DNA of 64,000 bases, taken from positions 1 to 64,000 of the forward strand of contig DASVWD010000004.1 in the NCBI GenBank assembly GCA_036389795.1, read 5' to 3'. Source of the stretch: Longimicrobium sp. GTDB lineage: Bacteria; Gemmatimonadota; Gemmatimonadetes; Longimicrobiales; Longimicrobiaceae. Positions 7,825 through 17,412 of this stretch are shown here, one piece after another (positions within the stretch are counted from its first letter, which is position 1; every line of letters starts with the position of its first letter). The position numbers and the translations under genes were made by a program. The notes under the pieces were generated by a model that was not told the DNA's origin, ran no database searches, and saw only the letters and a list, made by a program, of their open reading frames with translations.

Positions 7825-7897
<73 letters not shown>

Positions 7898-7901
7898 CTG
7901 T

Positions 7902-7975
<74 letters not shown>

Positions 7976-7993
7976 CCTGGTTGGATGGAACAT

Positions 7994-8077
7994 GCTCCGG
8001 TGGCGGAACTGGTAGACGCGCTAGATTCAGGATCTAGTGGGGGCAACCCCGTGGAGGTTCGAGTCCTCTCCAGAGCA
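7994..8077 (+). tRNA. tRNA-Leu (CAG)
   Basis: An 84-nt class II tRNA with a long variable arm (tgggggcaacccc). The anticodon loop ttcagga gives CAG (reads CUG). The acceptor gctccgg pairs with ccagagc with one C-A mismatch at the fifth pair. Confidence 0.94.
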
Positions 8078-8084
8078 CTGTTGG

Positions 8085-8157
8085 GCCCCGTTCGTCTAGT
8101 GGCCTAGGACACAGCCCTCTCAAGGCTGAAACACGGGTTCGATTCCCGTACGGGGTA
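8085..8157 (+). tRNA. tRNA-Glu (CTC)
   Basis: A 73-nt cloverleaf with the typical ttcgtctagtggccta D-arm region of glutamate tRNAs. The anticodon loop ctctcaa gives CTC (reads GAG). The acceptor opens with a G-U pair. Confidence 0.95.
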
Positions 8158-8172
8158 CTGGTTGGAACATGT

Positions 8173-8246
<74 letters not shown>

Positions 8247-8249
8247 TAC

Positions 8250-8323
8250 GGTCGATTAGCTCAGCTGGTTAGAGCGCTCGCCTCACATGCGAGAGGTCCG
8301 GGGTTCGAGTCCCTGATCGACCA
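8250..8323 (+). tRNA. tRNA-Val (CAC)
   Basis: A 74-nt cloverleaf. The acceptor ggtcgat pairs with atcgacc. The anticodon loop ctcacat gives CAC (reads GUG). Confidence 0.95.
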
Positions 8324-8369
8324 CTGGAGGGACAGCCGACGCGGCGCGCGGGCTGTTCCTGCCGTTTCC

Positions 8370-8442
8370 GGGGATGTAGCTCAGCTGGGAGAGCGCTGCA
8401 ATCGCACTGCAGAGGTCAGGGGTTCGATTCCCCTCATCTCCA
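8370..8442 (+). tRNA. tRNA-Ala (CGC)
   Basis: A 73-nt cloverleaf. The acceptor ggggatg pairs with catctcc (one G-U pair). The anticodon loop atcgcac gives CGC (reads GCG). Last tRNA of the cluster; a strong hairpin follows 12 bp later. Confidence 0.95.
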
Positions 8443-13518: not shown

Positions 13519-13690
13519 CTAGCGGCGGCGCCCGCGTACGTTGACGACGGTCAGACCGGCGAGACCGACGGCGACCAGCGCGAGGCGGAAAGGCGGTCTG
13601 TAGTGTGTTCGGCTCGGGACGCACCAGGAAGAGCGCGGCGCCGAAGACGACGAGGAAGCCGAAGATGAGAGTCAGCGCGTCTCTGTTCAC
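13519..13690 (-). pseudogene. Frameshifted two-helix small membrane protein
   Basis: The GTG start at 13690 overlaps the toxin stop (GTGA). One frame gives an N-terminal helix (ALTLIFGFLVVFGAALFLV) ending in RPEPN. The +1 frame then gives RPPFRLALVAVGLAGLTVV and NVRGRRR before a stop at 13519. Joined, the two frames make a sensible 56-57 residue hairpin membrane protein. Either a one-base change near 13610-13625 has broken the gene or the sequence has an indel. The long uninterrupted frame through the hydrolase is a GC artefact. Confidence 0.5.
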
Positions 13691-14064
13691 TGCTTCTCGG
13701 TGTTTCCAGCTCCTGCTCGATCGGTACCGGCGCCGCCACGGAGAATCGCGACCACCTGATCTATGATGCGACTCAGCGCCGCGGGCGCGAGTTGTCCCAC
13801 CTGCCGTGCGATGAGCGTTCCGTTCGCCGTGAAGAGCTTTCCGGGCCGCACGTAGCTGGTTTGCTGCAGTGATCCAGCGACGAAATCGCGGGACGTCAGC
13901 GTGATCGCGAGTGGATCCGCGAACGCATTGCTGGTGACCTGTGCGAGGATGAAATCACCGCGCCCGGCGTTTGCCAGAACGACGGCCGGGCGCAGTTTCA
14001 CCTGGGAGAGGTCCGAGAACGGAAATGTGACGAAGACTACGGCTCCGGCTGAAAGCGCTGCCAC
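13687..14064 (-). CDS. MazF/PemK-type toxin (type II toxin-antitoxin)
   Basis: A 125-residue protein from a GTG start with an excellent gaggagg site 7 bp upstream. The N-terminal GAVVFVTFPFSDLSQVKLRP and AVVLANAG are the PemK/MazF SH3-like beta-barrel signature, followed by FILAQVTS. The family cleaves mRNA; the conserved Arg before P and the downstream Thr/Ser are visible. The tail beyond residue 105 is low-complexity. It overlaps the upstream antitoxin by 28 bp, the usual TA architecture. Confidence 0.82.
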   Translation of the reverse strand: MAALSAGAVVFVTFPFSDLSQVKLRPAVVLANAGRGDFILAQVTSNAFADPLAITLTSRDFVAGSLQQTSYVRPGKLFTANGTLIARQVGQLAPAALSRIIDQVVAILRGGAGTDRAGAGNTEKQ

Positions 14065-14347: not shown

Positions 14348-14376
14348 TTGCGGTTCCTCGTCGCCCCGATTAGCCT
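14348..14376 (+). promoter_or_regulatory. Promoter for the Cys-leader transcript
   Basis: TTGCGG at 14348-14353, a 17-bp spacer and TAGCCT at 14371-14376. The predicted start falls on or next to the A of the ATG at 14384, so the leader would be translated as a leaderless message. Confidence 0.5.
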
Positions 14377-14383
14377 TGGGCCT

Positions 14384-14488
14384 ATGACCACGCAGACCCG
14401 CGCCGCGATGATGATGTGCTGTCCCTGTGCTCTCCTCACGCGAGGGAGTAGAGACGGCGTCCGCGCGCGCGAAACCGGGTCGGCATGA
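14384..14488 (+). CDS. Cys-rich leader peptide (candidate attenuator peptide)
   Basis: A 34-codon frame. After MTTQTRAA come three ATG codons and then TGC TGT CCC TGT (14417-14428), that is MMMCCPCALLTRG. Three Cys codons in four positions is far from chance in a leader this short. The frame starts at the predicted transcription start and has no ribosome site, as in leaderless ORFs. A 15-bp terminator follows 26 bp after its stop, and the operon beyond encodes an ATP-grasp enzyme and a flavin monooxygenase of the organosulfur type. This matches the logic of poly-Cys attenuator ORFs known from mycobacteria. Confidence 0.7.
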   Translation: MTTQTRAAMMMCCPCALLTRGSRDGVRARETGSA

Positions 14489-14514
14489 TCTGAAGTCACG
14501 CGAACACGAGCGGA

Positions 14515-14550
14515 AAAGGCCGCGACTCCCTCGCCGGAGTCGCGGCCTTT
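14515..14550 (+). terminator. Attenuator hairpin
   Basis: A perfect 15-bp stem (aaaggccgcgactcc / ggagtcgcggccttt) with a 6-nt loop at 14530-14535, ending in TTT. Its left arm can alternatively pair with leader-ORF sequence: ggga gt at 14444-14449 with actccc at 14525-14530, and cggc at 14455-14458 with gccg at 14519-14522. That gives mutually exclusive structures. I see no known riboswitch in 14551-14691. Confidence 0.7.
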
Positions 14551-14691
14551 CGCCGTCTGGGGTTCCCGATGCGGCTCACCGACGAGGGCGCGGTGAGCTC
14601 CGAACAGCTTCCGACAGAGGTGAGAATCTGTTGGAACAGGATTCTGGCGACCCGGTATCAGGCCGCTTCCATCGGAGGACAAGGAGACGAG

Positions 14692-15651
14692 ATGTCCGCA
14701 ACCGCCGAGCGCCCGATCGCGCTCTTTCACGAGCACCCGGACTGGTTCCGCCCGCTCTTCGCCGAGCTGGACCGGCGCGGCACGCCTTACGTGCGCATCC
14801 CCGCCGGGAGCCACCGCTACGACCCCACCGAGGAGCCCGGCTACTCGCTGGTGTTCAACCGCATGAGCCCGTCGGCGTACCTGCGCGGCGCGGGGAACGC
14901 CATCTTCTACACGCAGAGCTGGCTGGACTACCTGGAGCGCGCCGGCGTGCGCGTGGTGAACGGCCGCGCCGCCTACGCCGTCGAGACCTCCAAGGCCGCG
15001 CAGATCGCCCTGCTGCACCAGCTCGGCCTTCCCCACCCGGCCACGCGCGTGATCAACCACCCCTCCGAGGCCCCCGCGGCCGCCGAGGGGCTGCGCTTCC
15101 CCGTGGCCGTCAAGCCCAACATCGGCGGGAGCGGCGCGGGGGTGCGGCGCTTCGACACCCCCGGGGCGCTCCGCGCGGCCGCCGAAGCCGGGGAGCTGGA
15201 CCTCGGTATCGACTCCACCGCGCTGGTGCAGGAGTTCGTCCCCGCCGAGGCGGGGCGCATCACCCGCGTGGAGGTGCTGGGCGGGAAGTACCTGTACGCC
15301 ATCCGCATCTACACCACCGGCGAGAGCTTCGACCTCTGCCCGGCCGACGTCTGCCTGCGCGCCGACGGGGCCGAGCTCGCCCGCGCCGCCTGCGCCGTCG
15401 ACGCGCCGAAGAACGGGCTGCGCGTGGAAGCGTACGAGCCGCCGGCCGAGATCGTCGCGCAGGTGGAGCGGATCATGGCCGCGGCGGGGATCGAGGTGGG
15501 CGGCGTCGAGTACTTCGTCGACGCCCGCGACGGCCGGCACTACTTCTACGACGTCAACGCGCTGTCGAACTTCGTGGCCGACGCCCCCCGCGTGGTGGGC
15601 TTCGACCCGTTCGCGCGCCTGGCCGACTACCTGGAAGGGGAGGCGCGCTGA
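14692..15651 (+). CDS. RimK-like ATP-grasp ligase
   Basis: A 319-residue enzyme from ATG 14692 with an aaggagac site. The middle and C-terminal parts show ATP-grasp features: FPVAVKPNIGGSGAGVRRF (nucleotide-binding Lys and Gly-rich loop), ALVQEFVPAE, and the Mg-binding end VGGVEYFVDARDG...FYDVNALSNF. ATP-grasp ligases couple a carboxylate to an amine or thiol via acyl phosphate. The N-terminus (ALFHEHPDWFRPLFAELDRRG) is the substrate-side Rossmann-like domain. The next gene starts 2 bp after the stop, so the enzyme acts with the flavin monooxygenase. Expression is likely set by the Cys leader upstream. Substrate unknown; not glutathione synthetase by sequence. Confidence 0.8.
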   Translation: MSATAERPIALFHEHPDWFRPLFAELDRRGTPYVRIPAGSHRYDPTEEPGYSLVFNRMSPSAYLRGAGNAIFYTQSWLDYLERAGVRVVNGRAAYAVETSKAAQIALLHQLGLPHPATRVINHPSEAPAAAEGLRFPVAVKPNIGGSGAGVRRFDTPGALRAAAEAGELDLGIDSTALVQEFVPAEAGRITRVEVLGGKYLYAIRIYTTGESFDLCPADVCLRADGAELARAACAVDAPKNGLRVEAYEPPAEIVAQVERIMAAAGIEVGGVEYFVDARDGRHYFYDVNALSNFVADAPRVVGFDPFARLADYLEGEAR

Positions 15652-15653
15652 CC

Positions 15654-16703
15654 ATGCGATTCGGATACTGGCTCCCCGTCTTCGGCGGCTGGCTCCGCAA
15701 CGTGGACGACGAGGGGATGGAGGCCTCGTGGGAGTACGTGAGCCGCCTGGCGCGGCAGAGCGAGGAGATCGGCTTCGACCTCACGCTGGTGGCCGAGCTG
15801 TTCCTGAACGACATCAAGGGGCAGGACGCGCCCACCCTGGAGGCGTGGTCCACCGCGGCGGCGCTGGCGGCGGTCACCCGGCGGCTGGAGATCATGGTGG
15901 CGGTGCGCCCCACCTTCCACCCGCCGGTGATCTTCGCCAAGCAGGCGGCCAACATCGACCGCATCGGCGGCGGGCGGTTGTCGCTGAACGTGGTGTCGAG
16001 CTGGTGGGCCACCGAGGCGAAGAAGTACGGCGTGCAGTTCGACGTGCACGACGACCGCTACGCCCGCACGCGCGAGTGGCTGGAGGTGGTCGACGGCGTG
16101 TGGAGCCAGCCGCGCTTCAGCTACGCCGGGCGCTACTACACGGTGGACGAGGCGGTGCTGGAGCCCAAGCCGGCCGCCCGCCCGCGGCCCACGATCTACG
16201 CCGGCGGCGAGTCGCCCGCGGCCAAGGAGCTGATCTCGGCCCGCTGCGACGGCTACCTGATGCACGGCGACCCGCCGGAGAACATCGCGCCGAAGGTGGC
16301 CGACATGCGCGCCCGCCGCCAGGCGCTGGGCCTGCCGCCGATGGTGTACGGCGCAGCCGGCTACGTGGTCTGCCGCGACACCGAGGCCGAGGCGCGCCGC
16401 GAGCTGCAGCGCATCACCGACGTGGGGAGCGGCGCCGCCTACCACAACTACCGGGAGTGGCTGGCGAACACGCAGCTCGAGCAGCGGGTGAGCCTGGAGG
16501 ACTACTCGGTGTCGAACCGGGGCCTGCGCAGCGGCCTGGTGGGCACCCCCGAGCGGATCGCCGAGCGGCTGATCGAGCTGGAGGCCGCCGGGCTGGACCT
16601 GGTGCTCCTGCAGTTCTCGCCGCAGCTCGAGGAGATGGAGCGCTTCGCCGAGCAGGTGATCCCGCTGGTGAACGGGGCGCGGGAGCAGAGGACGGCGGCG
16701 TAG
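15654..16703 (+). CDS. LLM-class flavin-dependent monooxygenase (organosulfur type)
   Basis: A 349-residue luciferase-like TIM barrel. It opens with FGYWLPVFGGWLRN, close to the SsuD/SfnG group that cleaves sulfonates or sulfones with FMNH2 and O2. Other landmarks are LEIMVAVRPTFHPPVIFAKQ, IGGGRLSLNVVSSWW (flavin phosphate region), YAGGESPAAKEL, and SGLVGTPERIAERL near the C-terminus. These enzymes need a separate flavin reductase, which is not in the window. The tight coupling to the ATP-grasp gene and the cysteine leader suggest sulfur scavenging under cysteine limitation; the exact substrate is not deducible. Confidence 0.85.
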   Translation: MRFGYWLPVFGGWLRNVDDEGMEASWEYVSRLARQSEEIGFDLTLVAELFLNDIKGQDAPTLEAWSTAAALAAVTRRLEIMVAVRPTFHPPVIFAKQAANIDRIGGGRLSLNVVSSWWATEAKKYGVQFDVHDDRYARTREWLEVVDGVWSQPRFSYAGRYYTVDEAVLEPKPAARPRPTIYAGGESPAAKELISARCDGYLMHGDPPENIAPKVADMRARRQALGLPPMVYGAAGYVVCRDTEAEARRELQRITDVGSGAAYHNYREWLANTQLEQRVSLEDYSVSNRGLRSGLVGTPERIAERLIELEAAGLDLVLLQFSPQLEEMERFAEQVIPLVNGAREQRTAA

Positions 16704-16920: not shown

Positions 16921-17412
16921 ATGTCCGACGGAGTCGTGGTCCGTCCCGCCAGCGAGGCGGACGGCGAGGTCTGGCTGGGGCTGGTGGACGCGCTGGCCGA
17001 CTACGAGAAGCTCGACCGACCCTCGCCCGAGGCGCGGGGGCGGCTGCTGGCGGACGCGTTCGGGCCCCGGCCGCGCATCCAGGTCTACATCGGCGAGATG
17101 GAGGGCCGGCCGGTCGCGTACGCCATCACCCTGGAGACGTACTCCTCGTTCCTGGCCCTGCCGACGCTCTACCTCGAAGACCTCTTCGTCGTCCCCGAGG
17201 CGCGCAGGCACGGGCTCGGCCGCGCGATGATCCGCTTCCTGGCCGGCGAGGCGGTGCGCCGCGGGTGCGGGCGGATGGAGTGGGTGGTGCTGGACTGGAA
17301 CCGGCTCGCCATCGACTTCTACGAGCGCCTGGGCGCGCGGCACATGAAGGAGTGGTACACCTACCGCCTCACCGCCGACCAGCTCCGGGAGATCGCGGAC
17401 GCTCCGGCCTGA
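16921..17412 (+). CDS. GNAT family N-acetyltransferase
   Basis: A 163-residue single-domain acetyltransferase. The acetyl-CoA motif A is YLEDLFVVPEARRHGLGRAM (R/Q-x-x-G-x-G/A as RRHGLG, about residues 84-100). Motif B, LDWNRLAIDFYERLGARHMKEW, gives the usual DFY..LGA ending. The N-terminal VRPASEADGEVWLGLV is typical of the spermine/diamine acetyltransferase-like subgroup. Substrate unknown. It is a monocistronic gene with a strong hairpin before it. Confidence 0.85.
   Translation: MSDGVVVRPASEADGEVWLGLVDALADYEKLDRPSPEARGRLLADAFGPRPRIQVYIGEMEGRPVAYAITLETYSSFLALPTLYLEDLFVVPEARRHGLGRAMIRFLAGEAVRRGCGRMEWVVLDWNRLAIDFYERLGARHMKEWYTYRLTADQLREIADAPA

Follow-up and report, generated by a model that had tools for sequence, protein, structure and literature searches.

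The sequence upstream of an operon for an ATP-grasp protein and a flavin monooxygenase in Longimicrobium sp. is best explained as a ribosome-mediated transcription attenuator that senses the supply of cysteine and methionine, a reading to which we give a probability of about 0.87. The window (the whole stretch of DNA analysed, 64,000 nucleotides) was compared with orthologous loci, and at the level of sequence this comparison establishes the leader, its codons, the promoter geometry, the terminator, the alternative pairing and, in relatives, the predicted sulfur-amino-acid control of the same operon. Translation of the leader, ribosome stalling and the direction of the response are inferred, there being no expression data. 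Leaderless, dual Met/Cys, terminator-based attenuators of this kind probably occur widely across a poorly studied phylum; induction by starvation has not been shown. The features of the locus are the following.

14348–14353, + strand: −35-like element TTGCGG, 17 nt from the −10-like element.
14371–14376, + strand: −10-like element TAGCCT, 7 nt 5' of the leader ATG; a leaderless transcript is predicted.
14384–14488, + strand: leader peptide ORF, 34 codons and stop (direct reading; orthologous Cys/Met leaders).
14408–14428, + strand: regulatory codons Met-Met-Met-Cys-Cys-Pro-Cys, ATG ATG ATG TGC TGT CCC TGT (direct reading; Cys and Met enrichment).
14429–14449, + strand: hairpin 1:2, CTCTCCTC with GAGGGAGT, the first pairing state (folding).
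14440–14449, + strand: segment 2, the 5' strand of the antiterminator, GCGAGGGAGT, pairing with 14525–14534 (permutation tests; fold).
14515–14550, + strand: intrinsic terminator hairpin (3:4), 15 bp (direct reading; similarly placed terminators in most relatives).
14525–14534, + strand: segment 3, the 3' strand of the antiterminator, ACTCCCTCGC, formed by the terminator left arm and loop (pairing with segment 2; fold).
14692–15651, + strand: gene for the ATP-grasp (RimK-like) protein, first of the operon (orthologs across Gemmatimonadota and other phyla).
15654–16703, + strand: gene for the LLM-class (SfnG/SsuD-like) flavin monooxygenase, the conserved partner (profile scores; conserved pairing).

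The leader ORF runs from the ATG at 14384 to the stop codon at 14486–14488 and encodes the peptide MTTQTRAAMMMCCPCALLTRGSRDGVRARETGSA. That the leader of the window locus has, in all, no more than three Cys codons and three internal Met codons was counted against its role as a sensor. Segment 1, CTCTCCTC, was read directly at 14430–14437 and GAGGGA at 14442–14447, and the terminator hairpin, AAAGGCCGCGACTCC-CTCGCC-GGAGTCGCGGCCTTT, has 15 perfect pairs (−29.7 kcal/mol). A first-pass annotation of this DNA, made from the letters alone, had described the 34-codon ORF with its run of Met and Cys codons, the perfect 15-bp terminator and these two short segments, all of which were found exactly where it had put them. 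It had also supposed that transcription starts at or beside 14384, without a 5' UTR, and the promoter geometry, itself a prediction, agrees: the geometry of the arrangement TTGCGG-17 nt-TAGCCT-7 nt-ATG is shared by all six distinct same-genus sequences tested, and a leaderless start is likely on this basis, in the absence of 5' end mapping. The U-tract of the terminator is short (TTTCG) in the window genome and longer in several genus mates. By folding, the leader RNA is more stable than shuffled sequence (z = −3.2), and no Rfam covariance model, those of the SAM riboswitches included, matched at the window locus. As to the surroundings, a divergent gene resembling PemK/MazF-type toxins (13687–14064, − strand) lies upstream, and the interval separating it from the leader promoter holds a probable partner ORF; the same-genus locus L003 has a similar gene in the same position. 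Farther upstream, seven tRNA genes are clustered at 7825–8442 (+ strand).

For the comparison, orthologous regions were defined as the sequence upstream of the ATP-grasp start, and upstream ORFs (uORFs) were scanned for the number of Cys per 8 codons. In the initial set of loci, 13 of 89 had a uORF with at least four Cys in 8 codons, with approximately 0.2 expected from dinucleotide shuffles and two on the reverse strand. The pattern was repeated in 60 additional orthologs, among which all ten of the added family f3 loci conformed to it. When the upstream regions were pooled and de-duplicated, at least three Cys in 8 codons were present in 45 of 136 (7.7 expected) and at least four in 29 (0.37 expected), which bears out the recurrence of Cys codons in orthologous loci on which the original proposal depended. 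A Cys leader is present in every one of the eight same-genus genomes searched (MPNHACTMRMRCCWC, MANHASMRMCCCPC and MQMTSRAQMMCCCMC among them). Outside the Met/Cys run the peptides diverge, with little sequence shared among orthologous leaders, as expected of a leader that works via its codons. Of 44 leaders, 24 have a sigma70-like TTGnnn-16/18-TAnnnT element 5–9 nt 5' of their start codon (background at random positions, 0.55%), and leaderless transcripts are likely from this spacing. Strong hairpins with U-tracts follow the Cys codons by approximately 60–105 nt in most Gemmatimonadota leaders and at somewhat shorter distances in Acidobacteriota. No terminator was recognised for the leaders L027, L028, L130, L131, L149, L179 and L182, and some orthologs lack a riboswitch as well as a recognised leader.

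The leader runs are typically of the kind MCMCMCC or MMMCCCCMC, and the identity of the sensed residue, which had been taken to be cysteine alone, was revised. The Cys codons are indeed enriched, but this description is incomplete in that Met codons also appear to be part of the sensor: non-start ATG accounts for 14.8% of the leader core codons, versus 1.1% in Cys-matched shuffles, in loci that had been selected by Cys alone. GTG, CTG and TTG are depleted in the same cores, so that the ATG enrichment does not merely reflect TG-richness. Furthermore, the rare TGT makes up 45% of the Cys codons in leaders versus 13% in the operon genes. It is inferred from these codon frequencies that the leader senses both sulfur amino acids, Met and Cys. 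In the open-access literature searched, no attenuator that senses Met, or Met and Cys together, was found described, nor any from Gemmatimonadota.

The antiterminator of the window consists of 10 perfect base pairs, GCGAGGGAGT (14440–14449) with ACTCCCTCGC (14525–14534), lengthened by CGGC/GCCG. Outside the helices the leaders align too poorly for a covariance model, and its conservation was assessed with a permutation test that requires no alignment, in which the duplex energy between the 50 nt after the Cys codons and the left arm plus loop of the terminator of the same locus is compared with that of permuted partners. The summed energy over the first set of 22 loci was −569.8, versus −483.6 (sd 14.5) for permuted partners (z = −5.9; 0 of 20,000 permutations); an independent set of 17 loci gave z = −3.7 (2 of 20,000), and all 39 loci together z = −7.1 (0 of 20,000), relatedness being uncorrected throughout. 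The control with the right arm gave z = −1.2; that with the reversed left arm was somewhat better than random (z = −2.7), indicating that a minor part of the pairing signal is due to composition. The alternative pairing originally suggested is, therefore, kept by locus-specific complementarity, with its register corrected to 14440–14449 with 14525–14534.

By taking these elements together, the following course of events is proposed. RNA polymerase would begin transcription at the leader ATG or immediately beside it; a ribosome would load on the 5' AUG and translate MTTQTRAAMMMCCPC... With ample charged tRNA-Cys and tRNA-Met the ribosome would run through, allowing hairpin 1:2 (14429–14449) to form behind it, the terminator (14515–14550) to form in turn, and transcription to stop. 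With Cys or Met in short supply, the ribosome would stall on the Met/Cys codons and cover segment 1; segment 2 (14440–14449) would then pair with the left arm and loop of the terminator (14525–14534), and the resulting antiterminator would allow the polymerase to continue into the genes for the ATP-grasp protein and the flavin monooxygenase. Folding of the RNA of the window locus is consistent with both end states: when segment 1 is masked and the right arm has still to be transcribed, it adopts the antiterminator (−46.5 kcal/mol), while the full leader folds into hairpin 1:2 and the terminator. However, as long as the right arm is unmade, the antiterminator remains the energetically preferred fold when segment 1 is free as well (−46.8), so that hairpin 1:2 must win kinetically. 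Moreover, the stop codon lies approximately 37 nt past segment 2, unlike in trp, and the off state must therefore depend on hairpin 1:2 forming again in the wake of the ribosome. Hairpin 1:2 is seen in the folds, but it is not energetically favoured alone and clearly beats shuffles in only a minority of loci. Kinetic pre-emption by this hairpin is the least secure step of the mechanism.

The ATP-grasp and monooxygenase genes are adjacent in nearly every sufficiently long locus, in Gemmatimonadota, Bacteroidota, Acidobacteriota and other groups. Identification of the monooxygenase as SfnG or SsuD proper was dropped because its scores with the NCBIfam equivalog models are below both cut-offs (249.8 bits versus 382.95 for SfnG; 174.4 bits versus 518.2 for SsuD), leaving superfamily membership only. 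In one Gemmatimonadota family the pair is preceded by the gene of an SsuE-type NADPH:FMN reductase, and in several members of this family the leader sits upstream of the reductase gene, which then separates it from the ATP-grasp gene. The reductase beside the pair indicates that the operon monooxygenase may be of the two-component FMNH2 type, and release of sulfur from an organic compound by such an enzyme, as in sulfonate or sulfone use, is the most likely function of the operon, the substrate being inferred. Of the attenuator controlling sulfonate/sulfone use envisaged in the first-pass annotation, the attenuator logic and the control by sulfur are supported; the substrate is no more than a family-level guess. 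A gene for a GNAT-family acetyltransferase lies downstream (16921–17412, + strand); its conservation with the operon was not found.

In relatives, the same operon is preceded by SAM riboswitches, which strengthens the reading of sulfur control. Of 31 Gemmatimonadaceae orthologs in which no leader was recognised, 19 (14/20 and 5/11) carry SAM-II (RF00521) immediately 5' of the ATP-grasp gene, as does none of the nine leader-bearing loci scanned alongside; many of the matches are slightly below the Rfam gathering cut-off, yet all are at the same place. The loci with SAM-II (SAM_alpha) are L139, L140, L144, L145, L151–L154, L159–L161, L164–L166, L170, L175, L178, L184 and L187. The leader and the SAM riboswitches would appear to trade places before the operon, SAM-II often being predicted where the leader is absent. 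In Bacteroidota, SAM-I (RF00162) is found immediately upstream of a terminal poly-Cys uORF (e.g. CCCCCC-stop) in all six loci that have one, in an apparent tandem of SAM and Cys control. These loci (L036, L044, L060, L062, L075 and L083) carry the arrangement approximately 340–500 nt before the ATP-grasp gene. As predicted from these matches, one operon is tied to the supply of Met/SAM and Cys by three different RNA devices.

The leader is not confined to this operon. When 390 genomes were searched for ATGTGYATGTGYTGY and ATGATGTGYTGYTGY, the same leader with a terminator was also retrieved upstream of metY (four genomes) and of thrC (one genome); the downstream gene was identified as metY at L198 (TIGR01326, 649 bits versus a cut-off of 495), and the thrC gene that follows the leader at L200 matches TIGR00260. 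When 30 metY loci were examined, approximately half had Met/Cys-rich uORFs (e.g. MSMCMCMC or MCMCMMCQC), many with terminators, and SAM-II was present in other metY loci as well as in two having the leader. Met/Cys-rich leaders, most with terminators, are found at the metY loci L198, L199, L204, L205, L226, L228, L229, L234, L254 and L255; at L226 and L228 both the leader and the SAM-II riboswitch are apparently near metY. Other pattern matches (L191–L194, L201–L203, L209–L221 and L223–L225) had no terminator and no sulfur gene; they fall within other genes or next to them and were set aside as chance. No close metY was found in the window's own genome, nor any convincing case of a similar leader near its genes for PAPS reductase (PF01507) or those of PF00291, PF01053 and PF03358. 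We regard it as probable that these leaders form a phylum-wide class of leaderless attenuators that read Met and Cys codons as one sulfur-amino-acid sensor and govern a regulon (the ATP-grasp/flavin monooxygenase operon, metY and sometimes thrC), and that the class has been exchanged in evolution for SAM-II or replaced by SAM-I followed by a poly-Cys uORF.

Among other explanations, control of translation, with the stalled ribosome altering access to the ATP-grasp ribosome-binding site, is proposed for mycobacterial poly-Cys leaders, where leaderless poly-Cys ORFs are reported to act on downstream translation (PMC9031893, citing Canestrari et al. 2020). It would also suit the Bacteroidota leaders, which end in poly-Cys right before the stop codon and after which no recognised strong terminator was found. 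For the window locus it is unlikely: most Gemmatimonadota and Acidobacteriota leaders have strong intrinsic terminators at the distances given above, co-variation links the terminator left arm to the stretch that follows the Cys codons, and the ATP-grasp Shine-Dalgarno sequence (14681–14686) lies approximately 130 nt downstream of the terminator. The initial supposition of transcription termination, unlike the mycobacterial case, is upheld by the presence of the terminator and by this co-variation.

Motifs rich in Met and Cys, such as MCMCMCC, are in general good ligands for soft metals, and the uORF product might itself be functional, for example as a small peptide binding or sensing copper, with the terminator incidental. 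Such a function is hard to reconcile with the scarcity of common sequence outside the Met/Cys run, with the over-use of rare TGT, which is a codon-level signal, with SAM riboswitches at the same operon and at metY in relatives, and with co-variation of the antiterminator, and it is considered quite improbable. An ordinary terminator next to a chance uORF, with no regulation at all, would account for the weak U-tract, and hairpins of high GC content are frequent where the genome itself is GC-rich. This explanation, which we hardly credit, is contradicted already by the enrichment of Cys uORFs and Met codons and by the permutation tests of pairing. Also against it, the codons, the promoter spacing, the terminator and the alternative pairing are all conserved from family to family, and the nearest upstream gene has the other orientation. 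Attenuation of transcription by a ribosome reading Cys and Met codons is, thus, retained.

In the literature found, Cys-sensing leaders have so far been described mainly in Actinobacteria, without terminators, and at cysS of Rhodobacterales. The present comparison would add, for Gemmatimonadota and Acidobacteriota, a complete transcription attenuator with a leaderless start and with Met as a further probable sensed residue. It would also link an operon for an ATP-grasp protein and a probable two-component monooxygenase, whose substrate is unknown, to the supply of sulfur amino acids. One operon under either codon-based or SAM-based RNA switches also offers a natural series for the direct comparison of the two strategies. 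SAM-I and SAM-II (RF00162, RF00521), which relatives carry at this operon and, for SAM-II, at metY as well, sense SAM directly and have no match at the window locus. Leader peptides with Cys runs precede actinobacterial cys operons without terminators (Seliverstov 2005, PMC1262725), and mycobacterial leaderless poly-Cys short ORFs are reported to attenuate translation or possibly to act through Rho (Canestrari et al. 2020, as given in PMC9031893 and PMC13236596). The window leader has in common with them the run of Cys codons, the leaderless start and the sulfur genes downstream; it differs in its intrinsic terminator with a co-varying antiterminator, its interleaved Met codons, its operon and its phylum. 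The Rhodobacterales uORFC-8-2, in which a terminator stem follows a uORF with Cys codons in tandem, has likewise been proposed to act by ribosome-mediated attenuation (PMC8632094). It is found only upstream of cysS, and not before ATP-grasp and flavin monooxygenase genes, it belongs to a different phylum and, unlike the window leader, it has not been reported as leaderless or Met-rich. The 1-2-3-4 logic is that of the trp, his and ilv attenuators, from which the window leader differs in sensing Cys and Met, in having no Shine-Dalgarno sequence and in placing its stop codon beyond segment 2. In classical leaders for branched pathways, too, codons for two or more amino acids occur together.
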